A DNA stretch of 64,000 nucleotides from Ghiorsea bivora (GTDB taxonomy: Bacteria > Pseudomonadota > Zetaproteobacteria > Mariprofundales > Mariprofundaceae). The first letter of the stretch is position 1. Every line of letters starts with the position of its first letter. Under the pieces are notes generated by a model. It was not told where the DNA came from. It worked only from the letters and a program-made list of their open reading frames with translations, and did not search any database. Shown here piece by piece: positions 19,392 to 41,878 of the stretch. The stretch covers positions 186,001 through 250,000 of the forward strand of contig NZ_JQLW01000006.1 in NCBI RefSeq assembly GCF_000744415.1. The letters are read 5' to 3'. A program made the position numbers and the translations under genes.

Positions 19392-19419
19392 TTGCAATCG
19401 AAACAACACTGGCTATATT
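19392..19419 (+). promoter_or_regulatory. Probable promoter of the tRNA-Ser/Arg cluster
   Basis: TTGCAA (19392-19397), a 16-bp spacer and TATATT (19414-19419) are followed by a GC-rich discriminator (GCGCCCC), as is usual for stable RNA genes. The first tRNA begins 13 bp after the -10 element. Confidence 0.5.
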
Positions 19420-19431
19420 GCGCCCCACAAC

Positions 19432-19520
19432 GGAAGGGTGACAGAGCTGGCCGAATGTACCGGTCTTGAAAACCGGCGTAGGGAAACCTACCGTGGGTTC
19501 GAATCCCACCCCTTCCGCCA
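19432..19520 (+). tRNA. tRNA-Ser (anticodon TGA)
   Basis: The cloverleaf has acceptor GGAAGGG/CCCTTCC, anticodon loop CTTGAAA with TGA at 19467-19469, a long variable arm (TAGGGAAACCTA) and T-loop TTCGAAT. The CCA end is encoded at 19518-19520. Confidence 0.97.
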
Positions 19521-19561
19521 GCTAATGTGGTCTCCGCTGTTTTTCAGCGGAGCTTCTACAA

Positions 19562-19651
19562 GGAGAGGTGGCTGAGTGGCTGAAAGCGCGCCCCTGCTAA
19601 GGGTGTATAGAGTAAAATCTATCGAGGGTTCGAATCCCTCTCTCTCCGCCA
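19562..19651 (+). tRNA. tRNA-Ser (anticodon GCT)
   Basis: The acceptor GGAGAGG pairs with TCTCTCC, the anticodon loop is CTGCTAA with GCT at 19596-19598, and there is a long variable arm. The encoded CCA ends at 19651, and that last A is also the first base of the ATG of the next gene. Confidence 0.97.
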
Positions 19652-20163
19652 TGTTTTTAAAAACATTACTGGGCTTAAGTTTAGCAGTGTTTTTAAGCGC
19701 ATGTGATGGAGAAAAAACGCAGGAAATTGAGTGGCAATTGCCTTTAAGTGTCCCAACCGACCCTCATGCTTCTGCAAAAGCCAAGCAACTCCCTGATTGG
19801 GCAATGAACAATCAAGGAAATGCAACTGTTGTTGTCCTGAACAAAGCAACAACACGTATATTTGAAGTTAATGTTCAAAATGGCAGTGAGAAAAAAACCA
19901 ATGATTGGTCGATTCAACTGCAAGGGCTTGCTCAAGGGCTACGTATCAAAGATAATACACTTATCAATGATACAAGCATAAGCAATCCCGCAGCTTTTGT
20001 CGCATTGTATTATCGTGATACATTGATGTATGAAGGCTGGTTGTACCAAGATTTCCCTGAATTATTTGGCATGGATAATTCGCACTGGAAAGTTTGGATA
20101 AAAGACGTTACTATGCCGCCGTCTTCGCAAGAAGATGACAACAGCAATAAAAGGCTCCCTTAG
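19651..20163 (+). CDS. DUF2155-like lipoprotein wedged between two tRNA genes
   Basis: This 170-residue protein has a clear lipoprotein signal peptide (MFLKTLLGLSLAVFLSAC). The body resembles DUF2155 proteins: ATVVVLNKATTRIFEV near residue 53 and the C-terminal NPAAFVALYYRDTL, EGWLYQDFPELF, HWKVWIKDV. The family's function is unknown. The ATG shares its A with the CCA end of tRNA-Ser, and the TAG stop (20161-20163) lies inside tRNA-Arg at tRNA positions 8-10. No ribosome-binding sequence exists, since the bases before ATG are the tRNA acceptor stem. The signal peptide leaves no sensible later start; the in-frame GTG at 19576 lies within the tRNA. See findings. Confidence 0.8.
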   Translation: MFLKTLLGLSLAVFLSACDGEKTQEIEWQLPLSVPTDPHASAKAKQLPDWAMNNQGNATVVVLNKATTRIFEVNVQNGSEKKTNDWSIQLQGLAQGLRIKDNTLINDTSISNPAAFVALYYRDTLMYEGWLYQDFPELFGMDNSHWKVWIKDVTMPPSSQEDDNSNKRLP

Positions 20164-20230
20164 CTCAGCTGGATAGAGTATCTGACTACGAATCAGAGGG
20201 CCGGGCGTTCGAATCGCTCAGGGAGCACCA
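20154..20230 (+). tRNA. tRNA-Arg (anticodon ACG)
   Basis: The acceptor GCTCCCT pairs with AGGGAGC, D-arm TAGCTCAGCTGGATAGAGTA, anticodon loop CTACGAA, discriminator A and encoded CCA (20228-20230). Its first 10 bases overlap the end of the lipoprotein gene. Confidence 0.97.
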
Positions 20231-20238
20231 TTTTTTAA

Positions 20239-20270
20239 AAGACCTGCAAGCAATTGCAGGTCTTTTTTTA
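20239..20270 (+). terminator. Intrinsic terminator of the tRNA cluster
   Basis: The stem AGACCTGCAA / TTGCAGGTCT closes a GCAA tetraloop and is followed by a T-run. It lies 9 bp after tRNA-Arg. Confidence 0.92.
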
Positions 20271-20365
20271 TCTCTATTTTCCACTAAAACAAACATAACA
20301 GCTTACCTGTTCACCTATCACTATAAAATAATGGCGTAAACCCTTGACACCTATAATGAATTAGT

Positions 20366-20530: not shown

Positions 20531-20683
20531 AGACCACGGGGCTCAAAATTTTATCTTAAAAATAAAGCATTTACATGACTTCCATATAGAGGAGATGGTC
20601 TTGGCTTGTACAAACACACAACGTAAAATCCTACAACAAAACACACAAACCATCTGCCAAAACCTATGCATACAGGGGCAAAC

Positions 20684-23263
20684 ATGACCAGTAAGCAGAG
20701 CCTAAAAAGGTTCATTTTCACCCTTCTTTACATCTGTATAAGTGTGAATTTATTGGCATGTAGAAGCACAGTTCCACAACCATCCATGCCCTTGCAGGCG
20801 CTAAACTCGCCTATTCCAAAATACAAAATGCACAATATAGGTCCACAACAAGCATCTGAATCACAATCAGTGCACTATGTTGACCTGAATCAAGATGGTT
20901 ATATCGACTTACTTATTGGTGGTCATGAAAATATTGATGGTTTCCATGTTGAATGGGGTGATGGTACTGGCAACTGGACACTACAGGGCGGCCCACTTAC
21001 AGCCATGCAGCCTCGCGCCATTGCAACTGCAGATGTTGATCACGATAACAACATTGAAGTCCTTATTGGCGGCGAAGGTGACCAAAAAGGATTACAAGTA
21101 TGGAAACTAAACAATCAAACACAGACTTGGGACCTACACTCGTCCCCCTTGGTTGCGGGCGTATTCCATGCCGTTAAATTTGCTGATATTAATGAAGATG
21201 GATGGCAAGATATTATTGCTGTTCGCTCAGATAGCATTGCCGATGGCGGCATTTATGTATTGCTTAATGATGGACACAATGGCTGGGTTCAAGGCACTGG
21301 ACCTATGGTCAAAGGTATCTTCACAGGTGTATCAGTTGAAGATATTAACGCAGATGGTCACCTCGATATTATAGCTGCGCGTCGTGGCGGTTTGGGTGCT
21401 ACACAAAACAGAGAACAACTTTGGAGTCAAGCTGGTGGCATTCAAGTTTGGTATGGTGATGGTAATGCACGTTGGGAGCCTTTGGTATTACCCACCAATG
21501 CCGACGCTGAATCGGTTACGGTTGCTGATATCAATAGCGATGGCAACTTGGATATTGTGGCTGGTTTATACCAACAAGGTATTCGTTACTGGATAGGTGG
21601 TGAAAAAACTTGGACAATTCAAAGCCTTACAACTTCGGGCACTTGGTCAGACGTGCGCGTAGGCGACCTGAATGCAGATGGTGATAAAGAGCTGGTTGCC
21701 TCATCCAGTATTGGTCAAGGCATGGCTATTTGGAGTTGGAAAGACAACCGTTTTATCAGTGAAGATCATCAAGTACCCAACTATGGCGTATACCTTGATT
21801 TGGATCTTGGTGATGTCAAAAACAATGGTCTATTAGATATTGCCGCAACACGAGCAGATGGTGGGGTTGAAATTTGGTCTTTTAGCAAAGCCAAACCGCT
21901 ACCCATGAAAAAATTCTTATCAAAACAAGTAGGCAAACGCCTTTCTATCTATTTCGATTCGGGAACAGCACGTTTAAACCCTGAATCCATTGAAAAAGTC
22001 AACGCATGGGTTGAATCATTAGGTGTGGATTTAAGTCAGCTTCACCTTGAATTACAAGGTCGTGCTGACCAACGTCCCATTCATTCTGAATTATACCCCA
22101 ACAACACAGCACTCTCCAGAGCCCGCGCAGATGCTGTAGCGACAACACTTTTAAGGCACAATGCAAAAAAAGAAAACTTAATCATTGATGCTTTAGGCGA
22201 TAAGTCTCCACTTCCACCAGGTTTAGACCCTGCTTCCTTACGTCAAAACAGAAGGGTGTTTGTAAAAGCCTTTAAAATTGAAAACACCAAACTTCCTTTA
22301 TCAGCATCCAATATCAATAAGCGTGACTTATATAATATTGATGAGAACAAGGTGTTTAAAACCATTGATGGTGTACCTGAATACAAAGTTGGTATTGGTG
22401 ACGAGCTACAAATTACTTTTTGGCAGGGTGCAAAGTCAGAGGTACAAAAGGTCATCGTACAAATCGATGGCACGGTATCCCTCCCTTACCAAGCTGCGCT
22501 TAAAGTGGCAGGTCTAACACCACGTGAAATCGATAGCCTAACCACAAACATTATTAGGAAGTATGAACGAAACCCACGCGTTGATGTTCAAGTGCTTAAA
22601 GCCAAGAGTAAATTTGCCAGTATTTTTGGTGAGGTACAAAGTTTATCACGTCAACCTACAGGTGCAGGCACTTATGCCCTGCGCGGTAAAGAAAGTTTGG
22701 TTGATTTTTTATCCCGTGTGGGTGGTCCGACCAAAGAAGCCAACTTAAATAATGTACAAATCATTCGTGATGGTAAAACCGTACTCTTGGATTTAAACCG
22801 TGCTATTCGCCAAGGTGATTTATCTGAAAATGCTATTATTGATGATGGAGATACCATTTTTATCCCATCACTTGCCCAATCCAAACGCCAAGTTTATGTG
22901 CTTGGGCAAGTTGCCAAAGCTGGTATTGTAGAGTTTACAGGTGATATCAACTTTTTGGATGCTGTTTCTAAGGCGGGCGGCTTGACTAATGATGCCTATT
23001 TACCAGATATTCGAATTTTACGTACAGATAGAGACCAACCGCAAATCCTAGCTGTTAACTTCCAACGTTTCCTTGAAGAAGGTGATTTAACCCAAAACCT
23101 TGCTTTGATGGATAAAGATGTATTGATTATACCATCACGCCCTATTGCCAATTGGAATAAGTTTATAGCTGATATAACACCTTCGATTACTTTGCTTTTA
23201 CAACCTGTTAGCATTGCCCAGCAAATTCTAACGCTACGCTTATTAACGGGGCAGATTCAATAA
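20684..23263 (+). CDS. FG-GAP propeller / OmpA / Wza-type polysaccharide export fusion lipoprotein
   Basis: This 859-residue outer-membrane lipoprotein (lipobox LLAC, Cys26) joins three modules. Residues ~63-405 contain seven FG-GAP/VCBS repeats spaced about 50 residues apart, with Ca-binding loops such as DLNQDGYIDLLIGG, DINADGHLDIIAAR and DLNADGDKELV, as expected for a seven-bladed propeller. Residues ~408-530 form an OmpA-type peptidoglycan-binding domain (LSIYFDSGTARLNPES, LQGRADQRP, NRRVFVKA). Residues ~566-859 are a Wza-like export domain (YKVGIGDELQITFW, DGTVSLPYQAALKVAG) with SLBB-type repeats (VYVLGQVAKAGIVEF). AGGGG precedes the ATG at 20684. The next gene overlaps its stop as TAATG. 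Confidence 0.88.
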   Translation: MTSKQSLKRFIFTLLYICISVNLLACRSTVPQPSMPLQALNSPIPKYKMHNIGPQQASESQSVHYVDLNQDGYIDLLIGGHENIDGFHVEWGDGTGNWTLQGGPLTAMQPRAIATADVDHDNNIEVLIGGEGDQKGLQVWKLNNQTQTWDLHSSPLVAGVFHAVKFADINEDGWQDIIAVRSDSIADGGIYVLLNDGHNGWVQGTGPMVKGIFTGVSVEDINADGHLDIIAARRGGLGATQNREQLWSQAGGIQVWYGDGNARWEPLVLPTNADAESVTVADINSDGNLDIVAGLYQQGIRYWIGGEKTWTIQSLTTSGTWSDVRVGDLNADGDKELVASSSIGQGMAIWSWKDNRFISEDHQVPNYGVYLDLDLGDVKNNGLLDIAATRADGGVEIWSFSKAKPLPMKKFLSKQVGKRLSIYFDSGTARLNPESIEKVNAWVESLGVDLSQLHLELQGRADQRPIHSELYPNNTALSRARADAVATTLLRHNAKKENLIIDALGDKSPLPPGLDPASLRQNRRVFVKAFKIENTKLPLSASNINKRDLYNIDENKVFKTIDGVPEYKVGIGDELQITFWQGAKSEVQKVIVQIDGTVSLPYQAALKVAGLTPREIDSLTTNIIRKYERNPRVDVQVLKAKSKFASIFGEVQSLSRQPTGAGTYALRGKESLVDFLSRVGGPTKEANLNNVQIIRDGKTVLLDLNRAIRQGDLSENAIIDDGDTIFIPSLAQSKRQVYVLGQVAKAGIVEFTGDINFLDAVSKAGGLTNDAYLPDIRILRTDRDQPQILAVNFQRFLEEGDLTQNLALMDKDVLIIPSRPIANWNKFIADITPSITLLLQPVSIAQQILTLRLLTGQIQ

Positions 23264-37821: not shown

Positions 37822-37906
37822 GCCCGAGTGATGGAACTGGTAGACTTGGGGGATTCAAAATCCCTTGCCTCACGGCGTGGCGGTTCGAATCCGCCCTCGG
37901 GTACCA
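37822..37906 (+). tRNA. tRNA-Leu (anticodon CAA)
   Basis: Acceptor GCCCGAG/CTCGGGT, anticodon loop TTCAAAA (CAA), long variable arm (TGCCTCACGGCGT), T-loop TTCGAAT and encoded CCA (37904-37906) are all present. A TTGACA lies at 37747, but no good -10 follows. Confidence 0.96.
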
Positions 37907-37912
37907 TTCATG

Positions 37913-37949
37913 AGCCTGCAAACTTTTCGAAGTTTGCAGGCTTTTTTTA
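37913..37949 (+). terminator. Intrinsic terminator of tRNA-Leu
   Basis: AGCCTGCAAACTT / AAGTTTGCAGGCT closes a TTCG tetraloop and is followed by T7. It lies 6 bp after the tRNA and 30 bp before hrpA. Confidence 0.95.
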
Positions 37950-37978
37950 TTTCTCACTACACCTTACACTTGGCAGCA

Positions 37979-40900
37979 ATGAACAATCCAATCAACTGGT
38001 CAGAACTCAGTAAAAATATTCAAACATGCATGTTGTTTAAGCGTAGGTCATTTTCAAATCGACTAAGAAAACTGCGTGGGCTGAGCAAAAAGAACAAAGA
38101 TATAAGCACCCAGTTACAACGTTTACAGACCGACATCAAACAATCACAACAACAGCTGTTGGATAGACAAAACAATATCCCAAACATCAACTATCCCGAA
38201 GACTTACCCATCAGCCAGAAGCGAGAAGTCATTGCAGATGCCATCCAAAGCAATCAAGTCACCATTATTGCAGGTGAAACAGGCTCAGGGAAAACCACCC
38301 AAATTCCTAAAATTTGTTTAGCGCTTGGGCGCGGCATCATGGGAACGATTGGACATACCCAACCACGCAGAATTGCCGCAAGAAGTGTGGCAACCCGTAT
38401 CGCCGAGGAACTTCAATCACCATTGGGTAAAGATGTGGGTTATAAAATTCGTTTTTCTGACCACACCCAGCCCAACACCTATATCAAGCTGATGACCGAT
38501 GGCATTTTATTGGCTGAAATTCAGCATGACCCTAGGCTTTTGCAATACGATACGATTATCATTGATGAAGCCCATGAACGCAGTTTAAATATCGACTTTT
38601 TATTGGGTTATATCAAAAATATTCTACCCAAGCGTCCTGATTTAAAGGTTATCATCACATCCGCAACTATTAATACCGAACGGTTTTCCCAGTTCTTTAA
38701 CCATGCGCCTGTCATTGAAGTGTCTGGTCGTAGTTTCCCTGTGGATATTGCATACCTACCAGCTGATGAAGACGATGATAAGTCGCTCGAAGCTGCCATT
38801 ATTCGAGCTGTTGATGAAGCGGCTGACTATGAGCCATTGGGTGATATTTTGATTTTCTTACCCGGTGAGCGTGAAATCCGAGACATTACCCATGCCCTGA
38901 ACCAACATGCCATGCGCAACACCGAAGTACTACCCTTGTTCTCAAGGCTTTCCCCTGCCGAGCAAGACAAGATTTTTAAAGGGCATAAAGGGCGGCGCAT
39001 TGTGCTGGCAACCAATGTAGCGGAAACATCGCTCACTGTGCCCGGTATTCGTTTTGTCATTGATTCAGGACTTGCCCGTATTAGCCGCTATAGCCCTAAG
39101 TCTAAAGTACAACAACTTCCCATCGAACCTATTTCCCAAGCTTCTGCCAATCAACGCGCAGGTCGTTGTGGGCGTGTGGCGGCAGGTATTTGTTTTAGAC
39201 TCTACAGTGAAGAAAACTTCAACAATCGTCCTGAACATACCGACCCTGAAATTCTCCGCACCAATCTCGCCAATGTGATTTTACAAATGGTAAGTTTGGG
39301 TTTGGGTGACATTCATCAATTTGATTTTATGCAACCACCTGAAAAGCGCAGCATACAAGATGGCTACAAACTGCTTGAAGAGCTGCAAGCGATTGATAAA
39401 AACATGGCTGTCACTAAACAAGGAAAACAACTTACACGGCTACCTGTTGACCCTCGCTTTGGGCGTATGTTATTGCAAGCCAACCAAGAGCGAAGCCTAC
39501 GAGAAGTATTGATTATTGTTGCCGCCTTATCCGTACAAGACCCTAAAATACGCCCCGCAGACAAGCAGCAAAAAGCCGATGAAAAACACAAGATTTTCAC
39601 CGACAAAACATCCGACTTTTTATCATGGCTTAAGCTGTGGTTTTGGTATCAAGAACAACGCAAACATTTAAGTAAGTCTCAGCTTAGAAAAACCTGCACC
39701 GCACATTTCTTATCCTATTTGCGTATGCGTGAATGGACAGATTTACATGGACAATTGCTTGGCATCGTCCGTGAATTAAAGCTCACCCCCAATAAAGAAG
39801 ATGCCAAACCCGATGAAATCCACAGAGCTATGCTTTCAGGGCTACTTAGTCATGTGATTAAAAAACGCGAAGAAGCAAAAAAAGGGGACGCACCATTTAT
39901 TGGCGCACGAGGTTTGCAAGTCCACTTGTTCCCAGGTTCGCCTGTGAGCAAAAAACCAGCACGTTGGTTGATGGCAGGCTCACTGGTCGAAACCTCTCGC
40001 CTATTCGCCCGCAGCCTCTCACCCATCAACCCTGAATGGTTAGAAGTTTTAGCACCCCATCTGCTCAAACGAACCTATAGTGAACCACATTGGTCAAAAA
40101 AACGTGCCCAAGTTTGCGCCTATGAAACGGTGACTTTATATGGCTTGCCCATTGTGAGCCGCCGTATTGTACACTTTGGCAGCATAGACCCTGAAATATC
40201 CCGTGAAATTTTCATTCGTCATGCTTTGGTTCACCATGAGTTTCACAGTTTTGGCAAATGGTTTAAACACAATACAAAACTTTTGGCAGAAATTGAACAT
40301 ATGGAAGCCATGCACCGCCGCCGTGATTTTATGAGCGATGAACAAACCCGCTTTGATTTCTTCGATGCGCTTATTCCTGAACATGTGTATAGTGGAAAGC
40401 TATTTGAGCAATGGCGTAAAAAAGCTGAGAAAGATAAACCAAAACTACTTTATTTAAGTAAGGACGTCTTGTTAGAAGATGCAACCCATACCATTGATAG
40501 TCGGCAGTTTCCTACACACTTGGAAACCCATGGTTTAAAACTCAAACTACAATACCACTTCGACCCCAGTCATCATGCCGATGGCATCACAGTGCAAGTG
40601 CCTATTATGGCATTGGGTCAGCTTAAAGCAGAGCCGTTTGAGTGGTTGGTACCAGGCGTGTTAGAAGAAAAAATTACAACGCTTATCAAAGCTTTGCCTA
40701 AATCGCTACGCAAAAACTTTGTGCCAGCACCTCAGTTTGCCGCAGCTTGCGCAGGTAATCTAAGTTTTGCGCAAGGTTCACTATTGCTTGCCTTATCACG
40801 AGAGTTGCAACGCATGACTGGTATTTATATCCCTACGCAAGATTGGCAAATTGATAAATTGCCTGCCCATTTATGTATGAAATTTGAAGTACGTGATCAA

Positions 40901-41878
40901 AATAACAAAGTCATCACCACTGGACATCAGCTGGGTTTATTACAAAAGCAATACGCACACCTTGCCCGCGTGAATACAGGGCAACAAAAACACACCGCGA
41001 TTAAACTACAACAAAATATCACCCGCTGGGACTTTGGCGAGTTGCCTGAAGTGGTCACCAGCCAAAAACAAGGCATGCATATTGCCCAGTTCCCTGCTTT
41101 GGTGGATAAACAAAACAGTGTATGCATCAATCTTTTAGAGAGCGAAAATGCTGCGCTAAAAGCCACACGACAAGGTATAAAACGTTTGCTTATGCTTAGT
41201 TTGCACCAGCAAGTAGATATGCTGCGAAAGAATATGCCCAAACAAAAGGAGCTGGCTTTGTATTATGTCAGCCTTGGCAAAGCCGAAGATTTGCGTGAGT
41301 CCATCATTAGCCAAACATTTGAGCAGGTATTTTTATCTGACCTAAAAACATTGCCCCGCAATGCCAAAACTTTTCAAATGCTTTTGGATAAAGGCAGAGC
41401 CAAGCTGGTTAAACAAGGGGCAAACATAGCCGAACAAGTATGCCAAACATTACAAAACTATGCTGAATTACAACATAAACTTCGTAGCGTGAAAGCCGCA
41501 GCCCTTGCCCCTGTGGTACAAGATATACAACAACAAGTGCAACATATGATATACCCTGATTTTGTGAAACACACCCCTAGCCAGTGGTTGCCTCACCTGC
41601 CTAGATTTATACAAGCTGCTTTATTACGCTTGGAAAAAGCAGGGCAACAGTTGGCGCAAGACAGTATTAACACCAAGGTGTTACAACAGTTTTGGTTACA
41701 ATACAGGCAGCAGCTAGAACAATGTGAAAAACATAATGAAGACACCGCACAACTGGTGGAATTTCGCTGGTTGTTAGAAGAGCTTCGCGTTTCATTGTTT
41801 GCCCAAAGCCTAAAAACATCCATGCCCATATCCATTAAACGCATAGAAAAACACTGGACATCCGTATTATCAGTATAA
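37979..41878 (+). CDS. hrpA: DEAH-box ATP-dependent RNA helicase HrpA
   Basis: This 1299-residue DEAH helicase matches E. coli HrpA (1300 residues), which acts on stalled or colliding ribosomes. Motif I is IAGETGSGKTTQIPKICL, Ia HTQPRRIAARSVA, II IIDEAHERSL, III SATIN, and VI QRAGRCGRVAAG. An OB-fold and a long C-terminal DUF3418-type region follow. The ATG at 37979 (MNNPINWSEL) is chosen; in-frame sequence further upstream lies inside the terminator and tRNA-Leu. No clear ribosome-binding site is present. Confidence 0.95.
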   Translation: MNNPINWSELSKNIQTCMLFKRRSFSNRLRKLRGLSKKNKDISTQLQRLQTDIKQSQQQLLDRQNNIPNINYPEDLPISQKREVIADAIQSNQVTIIAGETGSGKTTQIPKICLALGRGIMGTIGHTQPRRIAARSVATRIAEELQSPLGKDVGYKIRFSDHTQPNTYIKLMTDGILLAEIQHDPRLLQYDTIIIDEAHERSLNIDFLLGYIKNILPKRPDLKVIITSATINTERFSQFFNHAPVIEVSGRSFPVDIAYLPADEDDDKSLEAAIIRAVDEAADYEPLGDILIFLPGEREIRDITHALNQHAMRNTEVLPLFSRLSPAEQDKIFKGHKGRRIVLATNVAETSLTVPGIRFVIDSGLARISRYSPKSKVQQLPIEPISQASANQRAGRCGRVAAGICFRLYSEENFNNRPEHTDPEILRTNLANVILQMVSLGLGDIHQFDFMQPPEKRSIQDGYKLLEELQAIDKNMAVTKQGKQLTRLPVDPRFGRMLLQANQERSLREVLIIVAALSVQDPKIRPADKQQKADEKHKIFTDKTSDFLSWLKLWFWYQEQRKHLSKSQLRKTCTAHFLSYLRMREWTDLHGQLLGIVRELKLTPNKEDAKPDEIHRAMLSGLLSHVIKKREEAKKGDAPFIGARGLQVHLFPGSPVSKKPARWLMAGSLVETSRLFARSLSPINPEWLEVLAPHLLKRTYSEPHWSKKRAQVCAYETVTLYGLPIVSRRIVHFGSIDPEISREIFIRHALVHHEFHSFGKWFKHNTKLLAEIEHMEAMHRRRDFMSDEQTRFDFFDALIPEHVYSGKLFEQWRKKAEKDKPKLLYLSKDVLLEDATHTIDSRQFPTHLETHGLKLKLQYHFDPSHHADGITVQVPIMALGQLKAEPFEWLVPGVLEEKITTLIKALPKSLRKNFVPAPQFAAACAGNLSFAQGSLLLALSRELQRMTGIYIPTQDWQIDKLPAHLCMKFEVRDQNNKVITTGHQLGLLQKQYAHLARVNTGQQKHTAIKLQQNITRWDFGELPEVVTSQKQGMHIAQFPALVDKQNSVCINLLESENAALKATRQGIKRLLMLSLHQQVDMLRKNMPKQKELALYYVSLGKAEDLRESIISQTFEQVFLSDLKTLPRNAKTFQMLLDKGRAKLVKQGANIAEQVCQTLQNYAELQHKLRSVKAAALAPVVQDIQQQVQHMIYPDFVKHTPSQWLPHLPRFIQAALLRLEKAGQQLAQDSINTKVLQQFWLQYRQQLEQCEKHNEDTAQLVEFRWLLEELRVSLFAQSLKTSMPISIKRIEKHWTSVLSV

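Follow-up and report, generated by a model that had tools for sequence, protein, structure and literature searches.

A lipoprotein gene of Ghiorsea bivora that overlaps a tRNA gene at each end and may begin translation inside one of them

In the 64,000-nucleotide stretch of the Ghiorsea bivora genome analysed here (the window), a lipoprotein gene lies between the genes for tRNA-Ser(GCT) and tRNA-Arg(ACG) and, by the ARAGORN bounds of these tRNAs, overlaps both. The ATG at 19651 shares its A with the encoded CCA of tRNA-Ser, and the TAG stop at 20161–20163 lies within tRNA-Arg. A preliminary description of this DNA had reported these overlaps, together with a terminator after tRNA-Arg and the lipoprotein signal of a DUF2155-like protein, and all of these observations are borne out. 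The features of the locus are as follows.

19392–19419, + strand: sigma70-like promoter, TTGCAA-N16-TATATT, with a GC-rich discriminator, GCGCCCC (consensus scan; predicted transcription start at about 19426)
19432–19520, + strand: tRNA-Ser(TGA), first gene of the operon (ARAGORN)
19521–19561, + strand: inter-tRNA spacer with the hairpin CTCCGCTG/CAGCGGAG (maintained in most Ghiorsea by compensatory changes; not followed by a U-run)
19560–19568, + strand: proposed Shine-Dalgarno (SD) sequence AAGGAGAGG, made of the tRNA leader and the 5' strand of the acceptor stem, serving the GTG at 19576
19562–19651, + strand: tRNA-Ser(GCT) (ARAGORN; CCA encoded; single copy in the genome)
19576–20163, + strand: longest extent of the ORF, 195 codons, opening at a GTG in the tRNA-Ser D-arm and closing at the TAG in tRNA-Arg; the proposed real coding sequence
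19651–19701, + strand: signal-peptide core MFLKTLLGLSLAVFLSA, from the CCA-sharing ATG to the residue preceding the lipobox Cys
19702–20160, + strand: mature DUF2155 lipoprotein, from Cys1 to the last codon (Pfam PF09923, AlphaFold model, dN/dS)
20154–20230, + strand: tRNA-Arg(ACG) (ARAGORN; single copy), of which nucleotides 8–10 (20161–20163) are the TAG stop of the ORF
20237–20273, + strand: intrinsic terminator, a hairpin plus U-run, which closes the operon

The promoter matches the consensus at 9 of 12 positions, which in the scan alone is not above chance; TATACTGCGCGCC-type promoter elements also occur upstream of tRNA-Ser(GCT) in genera g4, g5 and g13. (Ghiorsea, the genus of the window, is coded g1 and Mariprofundus g9; the remaining codes, g2, g4, g5, g10, g11 and g13, denote further genera of their family.) A consensus scan found no promoter-like site between the operon promoter and the terminator, the interior of tRNA-Ser included. 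The tRNA operon would thus include the ORF as a cistron, and only transcription across this cistron would reach tRNA-Arg. A hairpin with a T-run follows tRNA-Arg in most genera checked. The hairpin between the two tRNA-Ser genes is perhaps a processing or spacing element. Extra copies that would free the overlapped tRNAs were not found in this genome, where the other tRNA matches are tRNA-Ser(GGA), tRNA-Arg(TCT) and tRNA-Arg(CCG), and in the fused genomes checked for an additional tRNA-Ser(GCT) the other ARAGORN-readable tRNA-Ser matches were GGA isoacceptors. The next gene downstream (20666–23263) encodes an unusual fusion of FG-GAP repeats and an OmpA domain followed by polysaccharide-export (Poly_export, SLBB) domains, and stands ahead of a chain-length/tyrosine-kinase-like gene.

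Residues 58–152 of the encoded protein match DUF2155 (PF09923, profile positions 1–88 of 89) at 28.5 bits, compared with a Pfam gathering cut-off of 27. A lipobox of the form L-x-x-C follows the signal core (LSAC in the window's protein), and its Cys is invariant in 44 aligned sequences, whose alignment begins at that residue. The AlphaFold model of the mature lipoprotein is a beta-rich domain (pLDDT 80.9), for which a search of the PDB gave no match at E 0.001; a search of NCBIfam returned no family for the protein. It is encoded in 63 of 78 genomes of the class Zetaproteobacteria, the order tRNA-Ser(GCT)–lipoprotein–tRNA-Arg(ACG) is retained in most loci, and the mature domain has dN/dS values of 0.15–0.39 within genera. 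Conservation and dN/dS rule out a chance ORF; by these measures it is a real gene under purifying selection. Because the ORF is under such selection and the tRNAs are single copy, both kinds of product are probably functional despite being read from overlapping sequence on the same strand. Both ends of the ORF overlap single-copy tRNAs, and tRNA processing must destroy the message, as the preliminary description had argued. The DUF2155 proteins of Alphaproteobacteria, uncharacterised exported proteins, belong to the same Pfam family. In Thioclava the gene is non-essential, and its operon also contains mlaD and an NDUFA12 homologue (PMC9226611); no tRNA context is described for that operon, whereas the Ghiorsea gene lies inside a tRNA operon.

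To compare the junction with tRNA-Ser, 63 loci were oriented, 51 of which have tRNA-Ser(GCT) nearby; most of the relatives are metagenome-assembled genomes. We call a locus compact when fewer than 60 nt separate tRNA-Ser from the Cys codon. This is the case in 25 of the 51, from Ghiorsea and five other genera, with 36–51 nt between the end of the tRNA and the lipobox Cys codon, whereas in the 26 spaced loci, mostly from Mariprofundus, the distance is 75–777 nt. The compact state is stable through whole genera and represents about four to six independent lineages. The preliminary description had proposed that relatives with a separate start and a spacer would speak against the arrangement. Many such relatives exist, mostly Mariprofundus and with an SD of their own; the overlap itself, being conserved across Ghiorsea and five other genera, is not refuted by them.

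In every compact locus (25/25) the reading frame is open and in phase up to a GTG in the D-arm of tRNA-Ser (G15-U16-G18, at 19576 in the window), compared with 10 of 26 spaced loci in phase. The in-phase compact loci comprise four combinations of tRNA length and gap (90/51, 90/36, 91/47 and 91/44), so that the extra base in the variable arm of the 91-nt tRNAs is offset downstream. Given four architectures, the probability of this pattern by chance is about 0.04; sign tests on the tree comprise only 3–5 pairs and are below significance. The remaining two frames of the window's tRNA-Ser contain stops. U16, which makes the GTG, is kept in all 25 compact loci and in 17 of 26 spaced loci, and G7, which strengthens the SD, is present in 11 of 25 and 0 of 26, respectively, although these loci are related and not independent, and the tree offers too few contrasts for tests of the two positions to reach significance. 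Among the spaced relatives there are tRNAs with GCG in place of the GTG. In g4, 39% of the changes in the codons that immediately follow the tRNA are synonymous in this frame, versus 17% under column permutation (P 0.006); for codons 0–5 alone the signal is weak (P 0.18).

Several lineages lack another place to start. In L023, L027, L053, L056 and L058 the segment from the end of the tRNA to the signal core is devoid of ATG, GTG and TTG. A start outside the tRNA with a Lys or Arg ahead of the Cys is absent from 14 of the 25 compact loci, and four lineages other than Ghiorsea lack an outside start that is both charged and preceded by an SD. The n-region of the window's protein is positively charged (K4) if read from the ATG; in g2, g4, g11 and part of g5 it is charged only if the tRNA-encoded part is translated. 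In L007, where the neighbouring tRNA-Ser has been lost, the gene carries a separate ATG and a new n-region that is charged. Termination–reinitiation at the D-arm TGA-GTG was considered and rejected, since relatives do not conserve an in-frame ORF upstream. A frame that is open into a tRNA can be incidental: in the region 37822–37979 the frame of an hrpA-like ORF (37865–41878) also runs open into tRNA-Leu(CAA), but this tRNA is followed by a terminator-like hairpin and the ATG at 37979 is the likelier start.

According to the preliminary description, no Shine-Dalgarno sequence can exist upstream of the lipoprotein gene. It had not remarked that the frame continues open to the GTG at 19576 or that an SD-like sequence precedes this codon, and the claim is wrong, since AAGGAGAGG, at the 5' end of the tRNA itself, provides that GTG with a strong SD. 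This sequence lies 7–10 nt before the GTG, a suitable spacing, and its predicted hybrid with the anti-SD has an energy of −12.2 kcal/mol, compared with −7.2 kcal/mol at the 5% quantile of random ATGs. Across all compact loci with tRNA-Ser the D-arm GTG has SD energies of −6.4 to −12.2 kcal/mol, whereas starts outside the tRNA reach −2.4 kcal/mol or weaker in the 25 compact loci and −4 to −10 kcal/mol in most spaced loci. No 16S gene was found in this genome's assembly; with its 3' end missing, SD use was judged from the genes of the window, where SD cores precede 15 of 38 ATGs versus 3.9 by shuffling. The AA preceding GGAG was considered as a conserved extension of the SD and discarded, as it is not conserved. 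When folding is predicted for transcripts of increasing length, the SD stays largely accessible up to about nucleotide 19640, with accessibility mostly 0.3–0.7; in the complete tRNA it is unpaired with a probability of only 0.07–0.2. Because the folded tRNA hides the SD, initiation there would have to be inefficient. In addition, a GTG and SD-like bases occur in tRNA-Ser anyway, which is a point against a start within the tRNA.

At the other end, 34 loci terminate at or inside tRNA-Arg: 24 at nucleotides 21–23, nine at nucleotides 8–10 and one at nucleotide 1, so 33 of the 34 stop at one of two sites where tRNA-Arg supplies UAG. Ten loci are in a frame without an early stop in tRNA-Arg, and all ten end before it (frame versus stop position, Fisher P 5e-5, relatedness ignored). 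Overlap with tRNA-Arg varies among close relatives, L001 ending inside the tRNA and L002 before it.

From these data, we propose that one RNA, transcribed from a stable-RNA promoter, contains tRNA-Ser(TGA), tRNA-Ser(GCT), the message for the DUF2155 lipoprotein and tRNA-Arg(ACG). Ribosomes would initiate at the GUG at 19576 in the tRNA-Ser D-arm, with AAGGAGAGG at the 5' end of this tRNA serving as the SD. Initiation would be confined to transcripts that are still being made or are misfolded, in which the 3' strand of the acceptor stem has yet to pair with the SD. The tRNA would thereby encode 25 residues that form the n-region of a long signal peptide, the expected tRNA-encoded peptide being VAESAPLLRVYR; signal peptidase II would then cut at the lipobox Cys and discard this leader, so that the mature lipoprotein would be identical whichever start is used. 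Translation would terminate at the tRNA-Arg UAG. If a transcript folds and RNase P cleaves it, the outcome would be tRNAs and no message; if ribosomes capture it, the outcome would be protein and no tRNA. We assign a probability of roughly 0.55 to the reading that translation starts in the D-arm of tRNA-Ser and stops in tRNA-Arg, each transcript giving either tRNA or protein. A kinetic competition is suggested by an SD that is predicted to be open on nascent RNA and closed in the full tRNA. The broader proposal, that the tRNA gene doubles as ribosome-binding site, start codon and n-region of the lipoprotein and that nascent folding against ribosome capture sets the fate of the RNA as tRNA or surface protein, is more tentative, and we put it a little short of an even chance. 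Initiation at the GTG, its competition with folding and any regulatory meaning are all inferred from sequence. It is plausible that the level of the lipoprotein is tied to tRNA processing, as the preliminary description had suggested.

The strongest competitor is a start at the ATG that shares the CCA, either on unprocessed tRNA–mRNA or on a leaderless message whose promoter lies within tRNA-Ser, with the open frame into the tRNA being incidental. Most Ghiorsea and L021 have an ATG at exactly this junction with a Lys or Arg within the first five codons, which would give a normal 17-residue lipoprotein signal. That most Ghiorsea species keep both the ATG and a Lys or Arg at codon 4 fits this start and counts against the one in the D-arm. 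Several observations point the other way: (i) The ATG has no SD (−0.1 kcal/mol). (ii) The scan for promoters found no candidate inside tRNA-Ser. (iii) Two Ghiorsea relatives, L009 and L011, have ATA in its place, and L011 is without any other charged start. (iv) Four other compact lineages share the layout but not the ATG. Together with the five loci that lack any start codon at the junction, such relatives weaken the leaderless or internal-promoter start suggested in the preliminary description. We regard this explanation as unlikely overall, at about half the weight of initiation in the D-arm; within Ghiorsea the ATG could serve as a second start and, conceivably, as the main one.

The arrangement may instead be the result of neutral compaction, the gene giving very little protein or none, in which case the overlaps would do no regulatory work. 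The existence of spaced relatives and the coming and going of the tRNA-Arg overlap are consistent with this, but the dN/dS values indicate that the protein is probably made and needed, and the compact state at tRNA-Ser persists through whole genera. We consider it improbable. Still less probable is punctuation by the tRNAs on the model of animal mitochondria, in which endonuclease cuts at the tRNA ends would free a message with almost no leader, beginning CCAUG... where the cut follows the discriminator base. The zero-spacing gene order with encoded tRNAs at both borders suits such a mechanism; however, no RNase Z/RNase BN homologue in this genome reaches the curated cut-off, which speaks against an RNase Z route, a cut after the encoded CCA removes the A of the AUG, a cut at tRNA-Arg removes the stop, and the mechanism could not work in lineages without an AUG at the junction. 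For g4 in particular, a start at a weak GTG, TTG or CTG 6–9 nt after the tRNA, giving an uncharged signal peptide of 13–15 residues, is equally improbable: a GTG or TTG stands at +6 or +9 in 8 of 9 g4 genomes, but hydrophobic codons yield these triplets by chance, their position is not common to the genomes, they have neither SD nor Lys/Arg, L053 lacks such a codon, and the codons before +9 still look coding.

The locus resembles animal mitochondrial punctuation in that a protein gene abuts or overlaps tRNAs at both ends on one polycistronic transcript. It differs in being bacterial, in having an encoded CCA, no RNase Z-family homologue over the cut-off and a complete UAG supplied by the downstream tRNA, and in a start that is best placed within the tRNA and not at an end formed by processing. 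The tRNA operon of E. coli tufB, which combines tRNA genes and an mRNA on a common stable-RNA promoter with processing by RNase P, is a close likeness among bacteria. In bacterial tRNA–mRNA cotranscripts of this type a spacer provides a separate SD and start, which lets one transcript supply tRNA as well as mRNA; in Ghiorsea the tRNA and ORF sequences overlap, making the products mutually exclusive. We found no precedent for the arrangement in the open-licence PMC literature, where several of the phrase searches were narrow. If our reading is correct, an essential tRNA gene is read as sense mRNA over most of its length, in breach of the rule used by gene finders that tRNA and coding sequence never overlap, and annotation pipelines would be expected to misplace or drop such genes. 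The locus would also offer a natural case of a single RNA contested by its co-transcriptional folding, by RNase P and by capturing ribosomes, and it would couple the transcription of stable RNA directly to an envelope protein. In Mariprofundus, spacers of 200–780 nt in L031, L032, L036, L038, L046, L052 and L059 contain repeated units like the 3' end of tRNA-Ser (ccctctctctccgcca) as well as hairpin-like segments, and are perhaps a small tRNA-associated element that separated the tRNA from the gene.
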